Origin: Pseudomonadota bacterium
Lineage (GTDB): Bacteria; Desulfobacterota; Binatia; Binatales; Binataceae
DNA: 64,000 nucleotides
Assembly: GCA_021324755.1 (NCBI GenBank)
Contig: JAJPIL010000007.1
Span: 186,001 to 250,000, forward strand
Direction of reading: 5' to 3'
In this document: positions 5,920 to 11,189 of the stretch, one piece after another
Position numbering within the stretch: the first letter of the stretch is position 1
Layout: each line of letters starts with the position of its first letter
Notes under the pieces: model-generated
What the model was told of the DNA's origin: nothing
The model's database searches: none
What the model saw: only the letters and a program-made list of their open reading frames with translations
Made by a program: the position numbers and the translations under genes

Positions 5920-7206
5920 ATGGAGGGCGAACTTAATCGGCGCCACCTTCTAACTAAGGCGCTGGCCGGCTTAGCAGCTGGCGCTTTGGGATGGGTGCCA
6001 AATGAGCTTGTAATGCACGGCCATCGCCTTGGCCAGCCTCTAAGCCCAGCGCTAGTAATAGGAGATTACATTGCCCAGGCAATTCTGGCTGGTCTTATAG
6101 GCGGGTTTGTGCTTTCGGCCGAGCCCCCGGCCATCGAGTTTACCGCGCGCACTAAGCGGAGGCTTGTGCAGGCTTTCGTTATATGTGCGCTTTTGTCGTT
6201 TTTTTCGAGTTACTACTCGGACCGAGTCTTCAATTCGGTGCTTCAAGCAGGTGGCGTTCGCTTTAACGCGCAAGGCGAGATGATAAGCGGCTCAATTGTG
6301 ATGCTCGTTGTTGCGCGGGTCCTTGGTTGGGGAATCGAAGGTGCGTTGGTCGGGCTCGGTGTAGGAGTCGCAAGTTTTGTCGGAGCTAACCTCGTAAAAG
6401 GTCTCATTGGAGGATTAATCGGCGGCGTAATCGGTGGCCTCTCCTTCGATGTTATCGCTGTGGTTACCGGAGGAGGCCTAGCGGCGAGGTTTTTCGGGTT
6501 TAGCGCAGTCGGGTTAGCGATAGGACTTTTTATCGGACTGGTGCATGAGCTTACTAAGGTGGCCTGGCTTAAGGTCGAAGCCGGGCGATTACGTAACCGT
6601 CAATTCGTTATTGAGAAGAGTACTGTTGCTATCGGTCGAGCAGAGGAGAACGACGTGGGCTTGTTTGGCGACCCCGAGGTAAAGCCGCGCCATGCCGTTA
6701 TCTCGCGTTCTGGCCAAAGCTTCATTCTTAAGGATGTCAGCGGGGGTGCGGGTTTGTGGGTGAACGGACGCGCCGTGAGCAACGCAACCCTCAGTGACGG
6801 TGATCGGATCCGGATTGGCAACTACGAGCTTAGCTTTCATCTAAAGAAAGCCGCTCAAAGAGTTTCGGCAGCTGAGTCTATTTCGCAAGTGGCCACGCAA
6901 CCGACTAGCGCCCCTGCGCCGTCAGGGCCGACGCCGCGTCTTGTCGACGAAAACGGGAAAGTTTACGACTTACGGCGAGACGGACCGACTCATTTAGGCA
7001 GAGACCTTGGAAACGACGTCGTCTTGATGATGTCTTCCGTGTCTCGGCGACACGCCGTACTCGAGCCGCGCAATGGCGTCTTTTACATAAAGGACCTCGG
7101 CAGCCACAATGGCACTTACGTTGGAGGTCAGCGTGTCAGCGAGGCCCCACTCAAAGATGGCGATGTGATTGAGCTTGGTGATGCGAGGCTGGTTTTCCGA
7201 ACTTAG
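5920..7206 (+). CDS. Membrane protein with two C-terminal FHA domains
   Basis: 428 residues. The first 215 or so are hydrophobic and Gly-rich with several predicted membrane segments, including GLIGGLIGGVIGGLSF. Two forkhead-associated domains follow, at about 228-308 and 345-428. FHA domains bind phosphothreonine. The second has the canonical residues (LGRD, SVSRRH, SHNGTYV). The first keeps IGR, the His and WVNGR but has Lys where the phosphate-contacting Ser is expected (EVKPRH), so it may bind weakly or differently. A good ribosome site (GGGAAGG) precedes the ATG. A protein kinase gene follows on the same strand, so this is plausibly its substrate or docking partner. The membrane half resembles no family I can name. 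Confidence 0.85.
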   Translation: MEGELNRRHLLTKALAGLAAGALGWVPNELVMHGHRLGQPLSPALVIGDYIAQAILAGLIGGFVLSAEPPAIEFTARTKRRLVQAFVICALLSFFSSYYSDRVFNSVLQAGGVRFNAQGEMISGSIVMLVVARVLGWGIEGALVGLGVGVASFVGANLVKGLIGGLIGGVIGGLSFDVIAVVTGGGLAARFFGFSAVGLAIGLFIGLVHELTKVAWLKVEAGRLRNRQFVIEKSTVAIGRAEENDVGLFGDPEVKPRHAVISRSGQSFILKDVSGGAGLWVNGRAVSNATLSDGDRIRIGNYELSFHLKKAAQRVSAAESISQVATQPTSAPAPSGPTPRLVDENGKVYDLRRDGPTHLGRDLGNDVVLMMSSVSRRHAVLEPRNGVFYIKDLGSHNGTYVGGQRVSEAPLKDGDVIELGDARLVFRT

Positions 7207-7213
7207 CGAAGTT

Positions 7214-7230
7214 CGGCGTTAGACACGCCG
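7214..7230 (+). other. Short hairpin between the FHA and kinase genes
   Basis: CGGCGT and ACGCCG form a 6-bp perfect stem with a 5-base loop, starting 8 bases after the FHA stop codon. No T-run follows, so it is not a classical terminator. It could act as an mRNA 3' stabiliser or partial attenuator inside the two-gene unit. It may also be chance. Confidence 0.3.
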
Positions 7231-7418
7231 CAAGCGCTTGAGTTTGAACGGTTTCAAAACCCGTCCGACGTCGGAACGCAGCTTAAACTAGCGAGGGAAT
7301 AGGCGATTTTCACGCAAAGTCGTCAGTCGCGCCTGAGCGGCGGCCGCTCGAAAGCGTGCAGCGCAACGTCAAGGCGCGGCGTAAGATCGGTCACACGAAG
7401 GCCAATTCGGCACGGGCG

Positions 7419-8912
7419 ATGATTAGTCCTAACACGATTGTCGGCAACCGCTACAAGGTGATAAAGCTGCTGGGCGGCGGCGGAATGAAGCTGGTTTACC
7501 TTGCCGAAGACCTGCGCCTGGCTTCGCGTCGGTGCGCATTGGCAGAGATGGTCGACACTTTCACCGACCCTCAAGCCCAACAAGCTGCACTGATCAGTTT
7601 CCAGCGCGAGGCAGACATGCTAGCCCAGCTCGATCACGAGCACATCCCGCACATATACGACCGTTTTAGCGAGCAGAATCACCATTTCTTGGTGATGGAG
7701 TACATCGAGGGGGTGACGCTAGAAGAGGCGCTCAAAGCGGCGGGAGGGCGTCTTGAGCAAAAGCAAGTGATCGACATCGCCCTACAGATTCTCGATACGC
7801 TGGAGTATCTGCACGGTCTGAATCCGCCGGTCATCTACCGCGACCTAAAGCCGTCGAACGTGATGCTCACGCCCACAGGCAAGGTCAAGCTCGTCGACTT
7901 CGGTATCGCTCGCTTCTTTCAGCCCCGCGGCAACGCTACGTTAATTGGAACTCAAGGCTATGCTCCGCCTGAGCAATACCGGGGTCAAGTCGAGTGCTGC
8001 TCGGACCTCTACGCGCTCGGCGCTACGATGCATCATTTGCTATCCGGACGCGACCCGGCGAGCGAGGCGCCGTTCAGTTTTCCCCCTTTAGCTCAGCTGT
8101 GCCCCAACGTTGACCCAGTGCTTGCGGCGCTGGTGGATCACGCCTTGGCTTACGACGCGAGACGGCGAATCCAAAGCGCTAGCGAGTTCAAAGCCCGCCT
8201 TATCGCGATTCGCGACAGCTTGGCGTCCACCAGTAGCGCGCCTCATACCCAAGGGCCGGCACCGGCGCAAGCTAGCCAAGGGGACGTTGCTAACGCGCCG
8301 ACAATGCGGTTGTCCGACAAGGAAATAGCTTGCCCTTCCTGCGGTGCTTTGATTCCTAGCGATTCGCACTTTTGTTCCTACTGCGCTTCCGATTTGCGTC
8401 TTGTGCTCGGAGCTGACCACCTTGCGCAAACAACGTCGGCGCATGATTCCGCTCGAGCAGCTGGCGCACTGAACAGACCACAGTCACAGGCGCAAGTGCA
8501 CCGCGTAGCGCGCCGACGGCGCCGCCATCCGATAGCCACCTTTCTCCTCACGGTTATCTTGGGCGTTTTGGTTCTGCGCGTCATTCCATACATTTTCATG
8601 GGGTTTGCAGCTATTCTGGCGTTTTTAGCCGGACATGACGACACGCCTGCCCCGGGCGCTCATCCGCCCGCTGAAGAAAGCCTCGAAGTTTCCCCTGCCG
8701 ATACTGTCCGCGCCTTTGCGTTGCGTCGTATCCTTGACGCGCAGGGATACCGTTCCGTGAAAGTAAAAGTGCAGGGGCAAAACGTCGAGCTTTGGGGCAC
8801 GGTCCCTAGCGAGACCGACCGCCTTGCTATCGAAGCGACTGCTTTCGCGGTTACAGGCGCGATAACACTTAACGACCATATAGTGGTAAAAGATCCAGGC
8901 ACCGTCGAGTAG
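7419..8912 (+). CDS. Membrane-anchored Ser/Thr protein kinase with WNK-like lysine placement, zinc ribbon and BON-like domain
   Basis: From the ATG at 7419 the product is 497 residues; a GTG at 7356 would add 21 basic residues. Order: kinase domain (about 12-275), zinc ribbon CPSCG...CSYC (about 305-322), basic segment, membrane helices (about 374-407) and a C-terminal BON-like domain (about 430-497). The catalytic loop YRDLKPSN (Asp142), the DFG motif (Asp160) and the helix-C Glu64 are present. The VAIK lysine is replaced: the strand reads CALAEM with Ala42. A lysine sits instead in the glycine loop, GGGGMKLVY (Lys24), the position used by WNK kinases. It is therefore probably active rather than dead. 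The zinc ribbon and kinase face the cytoplasm; the BON-like domain would face the periplasm. It pairs with the upstream FHA gene. Confidence 0.88.
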   Translation: MISPNTIVGNRYKVIKLLGGGGMKLVYLAEDLRLASRRCALAEMVDTFTDPQAQQAALISFQREADMLAQLDHEHIPHIYDRFSEQNHHFLVMEYIEGVTLEEALKAAGGRLEQKQVIDIALQILDTLEYLHGLNPPVIYRDLKPSNVMLTPTGKVKLVDFGIARFFQPRGNATLIGTQGYAPPEQYRGQVECCSDLYALGATMHHLLSGRDPASEAPFSFPPLAQLCPNVDPVLAALVDHALAYDARRRIQSASEFKARLIAIRDSLASTSSAPHTQGPAPAQASQGDVANAPTMRLSDKEIACPSCGALIPSDSHFCSYCASDLRLVLGADHLAQTTSAHDSARAAGALNRPQSQAQVHRVARRRRRHPIATFLLTVILGVLVLRVIPYIFMGFAAILAFLAGHDDTPAPGAHPPAEESLEVSPADTVRAFALRRILDAQGYRSVKVKVQGQNVELWGTVPSETDRLAIEATAFAVTGAITLNDHIVVKDPGTVE

Positions 8913-9113: not shown

Positions 9114-11189
9114 CTAAGACCCAGCCGCGGTGGGTGTTTGACCGATAGACTCAAGCTCTCGCTGGAAGAGACGAAGCGCACTCGGGCGGGCTGCAGCGAC
9201 AATAAGAACGTCGCCCTCATTGAGCGGCCTATCCGGGTCGGCCAGCGTGAACCCTTCAGTGGGTTTGGAAGCGTCTCGAATAGCAAGCACGCTTACGCCG
9301 AACTTCGCCCGTGGTTGGAGCTCTCGGAGAGTTTTGCCTGACGCGGCGCGGGGAACGGTAAGGCGTATCGCTCTATAACCTGACGACCACGGTATCTCAA
9401 CGTCTGTAAGCGACATTGCGGATAGCGAAATCGCCGCTCGCGAGGCTGCCTGGGCAATCGCATGGCGTGTTACAAGGCCAAGATAACGTCGGTTCCTTGT
9501 GTCTTCTATCACAGGAAGCTCGTCGAGCCCTTCCGCATTCATCATTTGCAGCGCTTCGTCCAGGTTCGAACTTGGGATGACTGCTTGAGCTTGCGCGCGG
9601 CACAGGTCGTGCGCATTAATCAACGTTCCTAGGTCGACGCCGAGCGAAAGTAGCGCCAGAAGGTCTCGCACTACGATAACTCCAACGAGCGACCCACGAT
9701 TGTCAACCACGGGCAAACTGCTCACGGGAACTTCTCCAGCTAGGCGCAACACGTCAGGCAGACTCAACTTGTCGGACACTACGGGCACGTTTGAACTCAT
9801 CACATCGCTGACCGGGATTTGTCTCATGATGAGGCGCTCGCGACCAATTGCGAGACTTTTTCCTTCAAGGGCCAGTGCATACGTATCCAACGACTCTCGC
9901 TGGAGCATGCGGGATACCAACAGCGCTAACGTGCTGCTGATGAGAATCGGCAAAGCGATGGTATAGCTATGGGTCATCTCGAAGAGAAGGAAAGCTGCCG
10001 TCAACGGGGCGTGCGTTGTGGCGGTCAAAAAGGTGCCCAACCCAACCAACGCATACGAACCTCTAGGTCCGGTAAGTCCTGGGGCGAGCATCGTAGAAAC
10101 TCCACGAAACATTCCACCTACCATTGTCCCGATGTAAAAGATCGGGCCAAAAATACCGCCAGGCACACCCGAGCCGAGCGCGAGCGGGCACGACAGGATC
10201 TTCGCAATCGCCAACATAGCCATTCTTTGCGGCAGCAGTTTGCCCGCTAGCGCGAGATTTATAACCGGATAGCCGTCCGACAGATTTTCCGGAACTACCG
10301 TGGCGATTAGGCCTCCAATTAGCAGGCCAACACACAAACGAAGCGCCAACGGATAACCGCTGCGGCGAAATACCTGAGCGACCCAGTGAAACAGTTTGAT
10401 AAAACCCGCAGCCAACCCTCCCATCACCAGACCCATCGTTGCGTACGTGACGAGCTCGATGTTGCGCACGAACTCGAACGTTTGCACCTTAAAGACGGTG
10501 GCGCCGCCGAGAATCGCCCGAGAGGTCACCACCGCGCTGGTGGTCGCTATTATCAGCAGGGTAAGGTTCGCCAGCTCCATATCCCCCAGCAAGATGATCT
10601 CCTGCGCGAAAAGAAGACCTCCTATAGGCGCGTTGAACGTGGTGGCAATCGTCGCGCCAGCCCCGCATGCTATCAACACCTTGGCCCTGTTTTGATCGAG
10701 GCCTAAAAGCCTAGCCAATGTGGCACCCAGCGAGCCGCCGACTTGTGCCACTGGACCCTCGCGGCCAACCGACGCTCCGGCACCCAGCGAAACCGCGGCG
10801 GCAGCAGCTTTTACGAAGATTGACCGCGCCGGGAGCTTGCCCCCGCCCAGATGAATCGAGGCCAAAAACTCCGGAAAGCCGTAGCCTAAAACTTCACCCG
10901 GAAAGAGATAATGCAGGGTCAAAAGGGGAATCGCGCCGCTTAGAAACACCAATGGCAACGGTATACCTAGTTGTTGCCGTTCCAGCGCCTGAAAAAGCCA
11001 AGTGCTTTGCGCGATAAGCCAGCGAAATCCCAGGTTCGCCAGCGCCCCGAAAACTCCAACGATTACCGCCGCGCCTATCAGGCGAACATACTCTAATTGT
11101 TCGCGTTCGACCTGTAGTGCCTTGCCGATCTTGGGCCCAACTGTCGACGTCGTAAGCCCGACGTCTCTACTTTTGCCGTTCACAGCCAA
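9114..11189 (-). CDS. CLC-family anion channel/transporter with CBS pair and RCK_C domain
   Basis: The 691-residue inner-membrane protein has the CLC signature GREGPVAQ with the gating Glu144, the GGIFGP motif, and FNAPIGGLLFAQEI. Two CBS domains (about 460-590) and a TrkA-C/RCK_C domain (about 605-685) follow, suggesting nucleotide or ligand control from the cytoplasm. Two functional positions differ from the E. coli antiporter. The anion-contacting Ser of GSGIPE is Tyr103 (GYGFPE), and the inner proton glutamate is Ile198. The second change is typical of CLCs that work as channels, so coupled H+ exchange is doubtful. The start overlaps the upstream hydrolase stop by 23 bases, so the two genes are translationally linked. 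Confidence 0.92.
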   Translation of the reverse strand: MAVNGKSRDVGLTTSTVGPKIGKALQVEREQLEYVRLIGAAVIVGVFGALANLGFRWLIAQSTWLFQALERQQLGIPLPLVFLSGAIPLLTLHYLFPGEVLGYGFPEFLASIHLGGGKLPARSIFVKAAAAAVSLGAGASVGREGPVAQVGGSLGATLARLLGLDQNRAKVLIACGAGATIATTFNAPIGGLLFAQEIILLGDMELANLTLLIIATTSAVVTSRAILGGATVFKVQTFEFVRNIELVTYATMGLVMGGLAAGFIKLFHWVAQVFRRSGYPLALRLCVGLLIGGLIATVVPENLSDGYPVINLALAGKLLPQRMAMLAIAKILSCPLALGSGVPGGIFGPIFYIGTMVGGMFRGVSTMLAPGLTGPRGSYALVGLGTFLTATTHAPLTAAFLLFEMTHSYTIALPILISSTLALLVSRMLQRESLDTYALALEGKSLAIGRERLIMRQIPVSDVMSSNVPVVSDKLSLPDVLRLAGEVPVSSLPVVDNRGSLVGVIVVRDLLALLSLGVDLGTLINAHDLCRAQAQAVIPSSNLDEALQMMNAEGLDELPVIEDTRNRRYLGLVTRHAIAQAASRAAISLSAMSLTDVEIPWSSGYRAIRLTVPRAASGKTLRELQPRAKFGVSVLAIRDASKPTEGFTLADPDRPLNEGDVLIVAAARPSALRLFQRELESIGQTPTAAGS

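Follow-up and report, generated by a model that had tools for sequence, protein, structure and literature searches.

The closest described parallel to the protein considered here lies in the WNK family, which Kannan et al. regard as the sole functional ePK family without K72 (PMC1821047). In WNK1, Lys233 occupies position 55 of PKA (Kannan et al. 2007, PMC1821047), and the enzyme is active with its lysine at that position (PMC1821047, PMC4718504). The moved lysine has been proposed to permit halide binding in WNK1 (PMC4718504), and the L369F mutant of WNK1 is insensitive to chloride (PMC7606576). A review of the WNKs states that they are lacking in Bacteria and Archaea (PMC7606576). We found no bacterial WNK-type kinase in the open-licence literature searched, and reports outside it are possible. 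A 2025 review of bacterial pseudokinases recognizes the ActPs1-3, GLW, CP1, DYD and DLHK families, none of which has the combination of a lysine at position 24 and an alanine at position 42 that is described below (PMC12599244).

We analyzed a window, the whole stretch of 64,000 nucleotides, that contains a gene coding for a kinase-like protein with an unusual N-lobe (Table 1). The original prediction, made from the letters of this DNA, held that the VAIK lysine of this protein has given way to an alanine (CALAEM) and that a lysine in the glycine loop (GGGGMKLVY) stands at the WNK position. Both parts are borne out. The translation reads GGGGM-K24-LVYLAED in the glycine loop and C39-A40-L41-A42-EM in beta3; the G-x-G spacing puts K24 at PKA position 55, that of WNK1 Lys233, and alignments with StkP and within the family place A42 on the beta3 lysine, a pairwise alignment with S. 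aureus PknB being one off in beta3. Helix-C Glu64, YRDLKPSN and DFG, which had been reported as intact, are likewise seen in the translation, and their catalytic residues are invariant across the clade to which the protein belongs. The sole 16S rRNA match in the genome is a fragment ending at a contig end (contig C17, 59781-60674, L153).

Table 1. Coordinates of the kinase gene, its motifs and domains, and the gene upstream (positions of the window)
Feature	Positions	Strand	Basis
Complete gene, 497 aa, with kinase, zinc ribbon, TM and BON-like regions	7419..8912	+	Translation, Pfam, orthologues
Kinase domain, about residues 12-265	7452..8213	+	Pfam Pkinase and AlphaFold2 model
Lys24, relocated lysine, glycine loop / start of beta2, PKA position 55	7488..7490	+	
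Ala42, replaces the beta3 VAIK lysine	7542..7544	+	
Glu64, helix-C glutamate	7608..7610	+	Invariant in 81/81 domains
YRDLKPSN catalytic loop, residues 140-147	7836..7859	+	R141, D142, K144, N147 invariant
DFG motif, residues 160-162; Phe161 at the WNK1 Leu369 position	7896..7904	+	Invariant
Activation-loop T174 to T178	7938..7952	+	Both invariant in the K24/A42 clade
Zinc ribbon, two CxxC pairs	8331..8393	+	Pfam, just below cut-off
Hydrophobic TM segment after Arg-rich stretch	8526..8636	+	Hydropathy
BON-like domain	8700..8891	+	Pfam E 1.1e-5, just below cut-off
Gene upstream, coding for a tandem-FHA protein with multiple TM segments	5920..7206	+	FHA E 1.1e-37, two stretches

The open reading frame of the kinase extends upstream to a GTG at 7356, and in alignments its orthologues all begin at the codon corresponding to the ATG at 7419. 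Pfam recovers the Pkinase domain (residues 12-215, E 4e-37), as well as a zinc ribbon (residues 305-325, 24.4 bits against a cut-off of 25) and a BON domain (residues 428-491, 26.1 bits against a cut-off of 27); with a hydrophobic segment at about residues 370-406, these last two matches agree with the zinc ribbon, membrane anchor and BON-like domain of the original prediction. Both CxxC pairs are kept by all full-length orthologues, hydropathy calls the TM segment in all of them but one, and roughly 85-120 residues trail it. A single-sequence model of the tail (pLDDT 84.2) displays the element order H-E-E-H-E, and its best structural matches are the BON proteins OsmY and DolP. The hydrophobic segment is preceded by an Arg-rich stretch, which, read by the positive-inside rule, suggests that the BON-like domain is probably located outside the cytoplasm.

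The kinase domain displays the features of the Hanks-type enzymes, namely the glycine loop, the helix-C Glu, HRD, DFG and the P+1/APE-like motifs, with only the beta3 (VAIK) lysine absent from this set. An AlphaFold2 model built on eleven sequences (pLDDT 82.9, pTM 0.80) places K24 at the start of strand 24-31 (beta2), A42 within strand 37-45 (beta3) and E64 within helix 51-69 (helix C). The best structural match of this model is M. tuberculosis PknB (Z 26.2, 246 residues, 2.6 A), followed by other bacterial kinases; no WNK is among the matches listed in this comparison, and such a listing cannot exclude one. Among proteins of solved structure, those closest in sequence are S. aureus PknB, StkP and M. 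tuberculosis PknB (1e-35 to 3e-34), with WNK3 at 3e-20, and a search of solved structures with the N-lobe fragment returned StkP, PknB and receptor kinases. The protein scores 203.7 bits against the PASTA-kinase profile NCBIfam NF033483, whose cut-off is 450, and no Pfam match to PASTA repeats was obtained; nor does the OSR1_C domain appear in the Pfam results at E values of 0.1 or lower. Sequence and tree together indicate homology to the Hanks-type (PknB-like) Ser/Thr kinases, of which we take the protein to be a variant. Membership in the WNK family was considered and rejected on the basis of the DFG motif, the ranking by sequence, in which PknB and StkP stand far above WNK3, and the domain content. 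We accordingly classify it as a PknB-type kinase convergent with the WNKs, and not as one of them.

Orthologues were recovered from 39 of the 40 other genomes of the family of the window, the one genome without an orthologue being only 53% complete, and the K24/A42 residues are present in 40 genomes spanning 16 genera. We aligned 81 related kinase domains, comprising these orthologues, several paralogs and relatives. In this alignment every kinase with K24 has A42 (47/47), and all remaining relatives have K42 (34/34) with G, A, S or N at position 24; intermediates with two lysines or none are absent from the 81 domains. The original prediction had proposed a search of homologues for whether the lysine in the loop and the alanine in VAIK always co-occur: among these domains they are found together in a single clade and never apart. 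Within that clade E64, R141, D142, K144, N147, D160, F161, G162, T174, T178, P184 and E185 are invariant. At the level of DNA, Lys24 is encoded by AAG (35) or AAA (13) and Ala42 by GCC (36), GCG (6), GCT (4) or GCA (2), and the tree requires at least 9 codon changes at Lys24 and at least 12 at Ala42, all of them synonymous. If the sites were free to vary, the chance of synonymous-only change would be about 5e-7 for Lys24 and 2e-6 for Ala42 under a simple equal-chance model with a transition bias of 3. Close pairs yield dN/dS values of 0.02-0.15 for the kinase domain, which is under purifying selection. A substitution by chance, a fault of assembly or gene decay confined to a single genome, which might have been entertained as long as a single sequence was read before homologues were at hand, is rejected with near certainty by the presence of the pair in 40 of the 41 family genomes and by the synonymous-only change of its codons.

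In maximum-likelihood analysis all 47 K24 kinases form one clade (support 100/98), which is recovered in 100% of bootstrap trees. Next to this clade in the tree stands a canonical paralog from the same family, which carries GGGGMG together with CAIKEM or CALKEM; its placement as sister has a support of 88/84. A DNA pattern for the loop with the lysine matches 40 of the 41 genomes of the family of the window, none of the 107 other genomes of its class, and nothing outside its own family in a sample of 395 genomes of the phylum. It found 10 matches in 292 cyanobacterial genomes and one in 149 genomes of another phylum, none of them a kinase; as the pattern requires GGMKx[VI]YxA and is blind to GGQK, KLAY and VW variants, the range elsewhere may be wider. 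Relatives from Sericytochromatia and Tanganyikabacteria (44-49% identical) retain the normal beta3 lysine, and none of the relatives returned by a search of plasmid proteins exceeded about 41% identity. Most simply, the swap had a single origin, no later than the ancestor of one bacterial family, and has been retained since. As a single event, it makes the co-occurrence of K24 and A42 in 47 sequences one evolutionary instance plus its maintenance. The retention of both substitutions by these 47 proteins suggests that a WNK-like layout of the active site has been reached a second time, in bacteria. The K24/A42 paralogs (L139, L142, L124, L061, L064, L065) have differing C-terminal regions, including TPR, NfeD-like and weak BamE-like repeats, and two of them have GGGGQK in place of GGGGMK. 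We also observed an unusually large set of kinases in the 5 Mb genome G531, from which L018 derives (Bacillota bacterium UR.bin48): at least 87 PknB-like matches there have E values of 1e-40 or lower.

The gene for the multi-TM protein with tandem FHA domains lies directly upstream in all 38 loci with enough flank. In 35 of these a gene for a small zinc-ribbon membrane protein is inserted between the FHA and kinase genes; it is missing only in the three-genome branch to which the window itself belongs (7207-7418 in the window; L155, L156). FHA domains bind phosphothreonine, so this linkage is most simply read as pointing to a functional neighboring kinase. We posit that the tandem-FHA protein is likely to be a phosphothreonine-reading partner of the kinase. 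The canonical kinases of the genome could also supply phosphothreonine for the FHA protein. Elsewhere in the same genome, on contig C22, L005 (739-2877) codes for a zinc-ribbon protein whose kinase domain is degenerate. A canonical kinase flanks it on either side, and an FHA gene belongs to the same run; in L005 NDICPASVALT and LTGLEW replace HRD and DFG, and its sequence makes it a probable true pseudokinase.

We consider it probable that the protein of the window is an active PknB-type kinase that uses the relocated Lys24, in a WNK-like arrangement reached independently, because no other catalytic residue varies, positions 24 and 42 have changed in concert, and the pseudokinase of the same genome, L005, has by comparison lost both HRD and DFG. 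In such an enzyme the phosphate-positioning lysine would have left beta3, where Ala42 now stands, for the glycine loop / start of beta2. From there Lys24 should contact the alpha and beta phosphates of ATP and form a pair with Glu64; Asp142, Asn147 and Asp160 would then act as in any kinase. We infer both the catalytic activity and the contact of Lys24 with ATP. T174 is a possible autophosphorylation site, and T178 might represent the GT of the P+1 loop. The BON-like domain might serve as an outside sensor or as an envelope anchor, and the adjacent tandem-FHA protein would read the phosphothreonines made by the kinase.

The principal alternative is a nucleotide-binding pseudokinase, in which Lys24 holds ATP so that the protein can act through its conformation or as a scaffold, for instance by recruiting the FHA protein, without useful phosphotransfer. 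The missing beta3 lysine is the usual criterion for such an assignment, several families of bacterial pseudokinases exist (PMC12599244), the mycobacterial MviN, itself a pseudokinase, recruits an FHA protein, and some pseudokinases retain conserved nucleotide-binding pockets. However, the HRD Asp and its Asn, the DFG Asp, the helix-C Glu and the activation-loop Thr are invariant in 47/47 members of the clade, whereas the described bacterial families, like L005, lose several motifs, and we accordingly regard this alternative as rather unlikely. It is also conceivable, at a much lower probability, that the kinase is active with Lys24 kept for a different reason, another basic residue or none at all taking the place of the beta3 lysine. 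In keeping with this, several kinases are reported to bind nucleotide without needing Lys72 (PMC4718504); but Lys24 is seen only where the beta3 lysine is lost, and exactly at the WNK position, and the other clade-specific residues offer no obvious basic replacement in the pocket. An active kinase working through Lys24 is thus the reading that we favor.

On the other side of the kinase gene, and convergent with it, lies a gene for a ClC chloride channel/transporter with a CBS pair and a TrkA_C domain (9114-11189, - strand). The two are linked in 25 of 32 loci and unlinked in the other 7; the ClC gene is present in single copy in 40 of the 41 family genomes, and the metabolic genes beside it are equally conserved. 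One could envisage a WNK-type kinase in which the vacated beta3 pocket acts as a small-ion or osmotic sensor, with the BON-like domain and the ClC protein completing an ion-homeostasis module; we hold this to be very improbable. Despite the ClC neighbor, WNK-type chloride sensing is disfavored by the sequence, since the invariant Phe161 occupies the position of the L369F substitution of WNK1, where the WNK enzyme has the DLG leucine that lines its chloride site.

A bacterial clade with a WNK-style movement of the lysine, together with a canonical sister paralog surviving in the same genomes, provides a second natural experiment in relocating an active-site residue. With it one can ask whether catalysis survives the swap and whether the two substitutions suffice, and further whether relocation of the lysine alone creates a halide site or DLG is needed as well. 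In practical terms, an annotation that relies on the VAIK lysine would wrongly class all of the K24/A42 clade as pseudokinases.

Within this framework, the comparison with known systems can be drawn as follows. WNK1-4 and the bacterial kinase are alike in having a lysine at PKA position 55 in the glycine loop/beta2 and none at position 72, while keeping the helix-C Glu and HRD; they differ in that the bacterial protein has DFG where the WNKs have DLG, Ala in place of Cys in beta3, and a zinc ribbon, TM segment and BON-like domain without the OSR1_C domain of the WNKs. The WNK analogy ends at the lysine and, if active, the bacterial kinase works like a WNK there. PknB, StkP and Stk1 are its closest solved relatives and share with it the plan of a membrane-anchored kinase with an outer domain and an FHA partner nearby, but they retain the beta3 lysine and carry PASTA domains. 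The canonical sister paralog (L002, L132, L136) of the same family genomes has Gly at position 24 and Lys at position 42 (GGGGMG...CAIKEM/CALKEM). In the CAK-chloro kinases and POMK, too, a positive charge in the glycine loop substitutes for the beta3 lysine (PMC1821047, PMC12599244); these lack the helix-C Glu that the bacterial kinase keeps, and the targets of CAK members and POMK are not proteins, being small molecules and O-mannose respectively. Finally, the published descriptions of the bacterial pseudokinase families from ActPs1-3 to DLHK, which feature family-specific loss or alteration of HRD, DFG or the helix-C Glu, or a Lys-to-Arg change, set the K24/A42 kinase apart from all of them.
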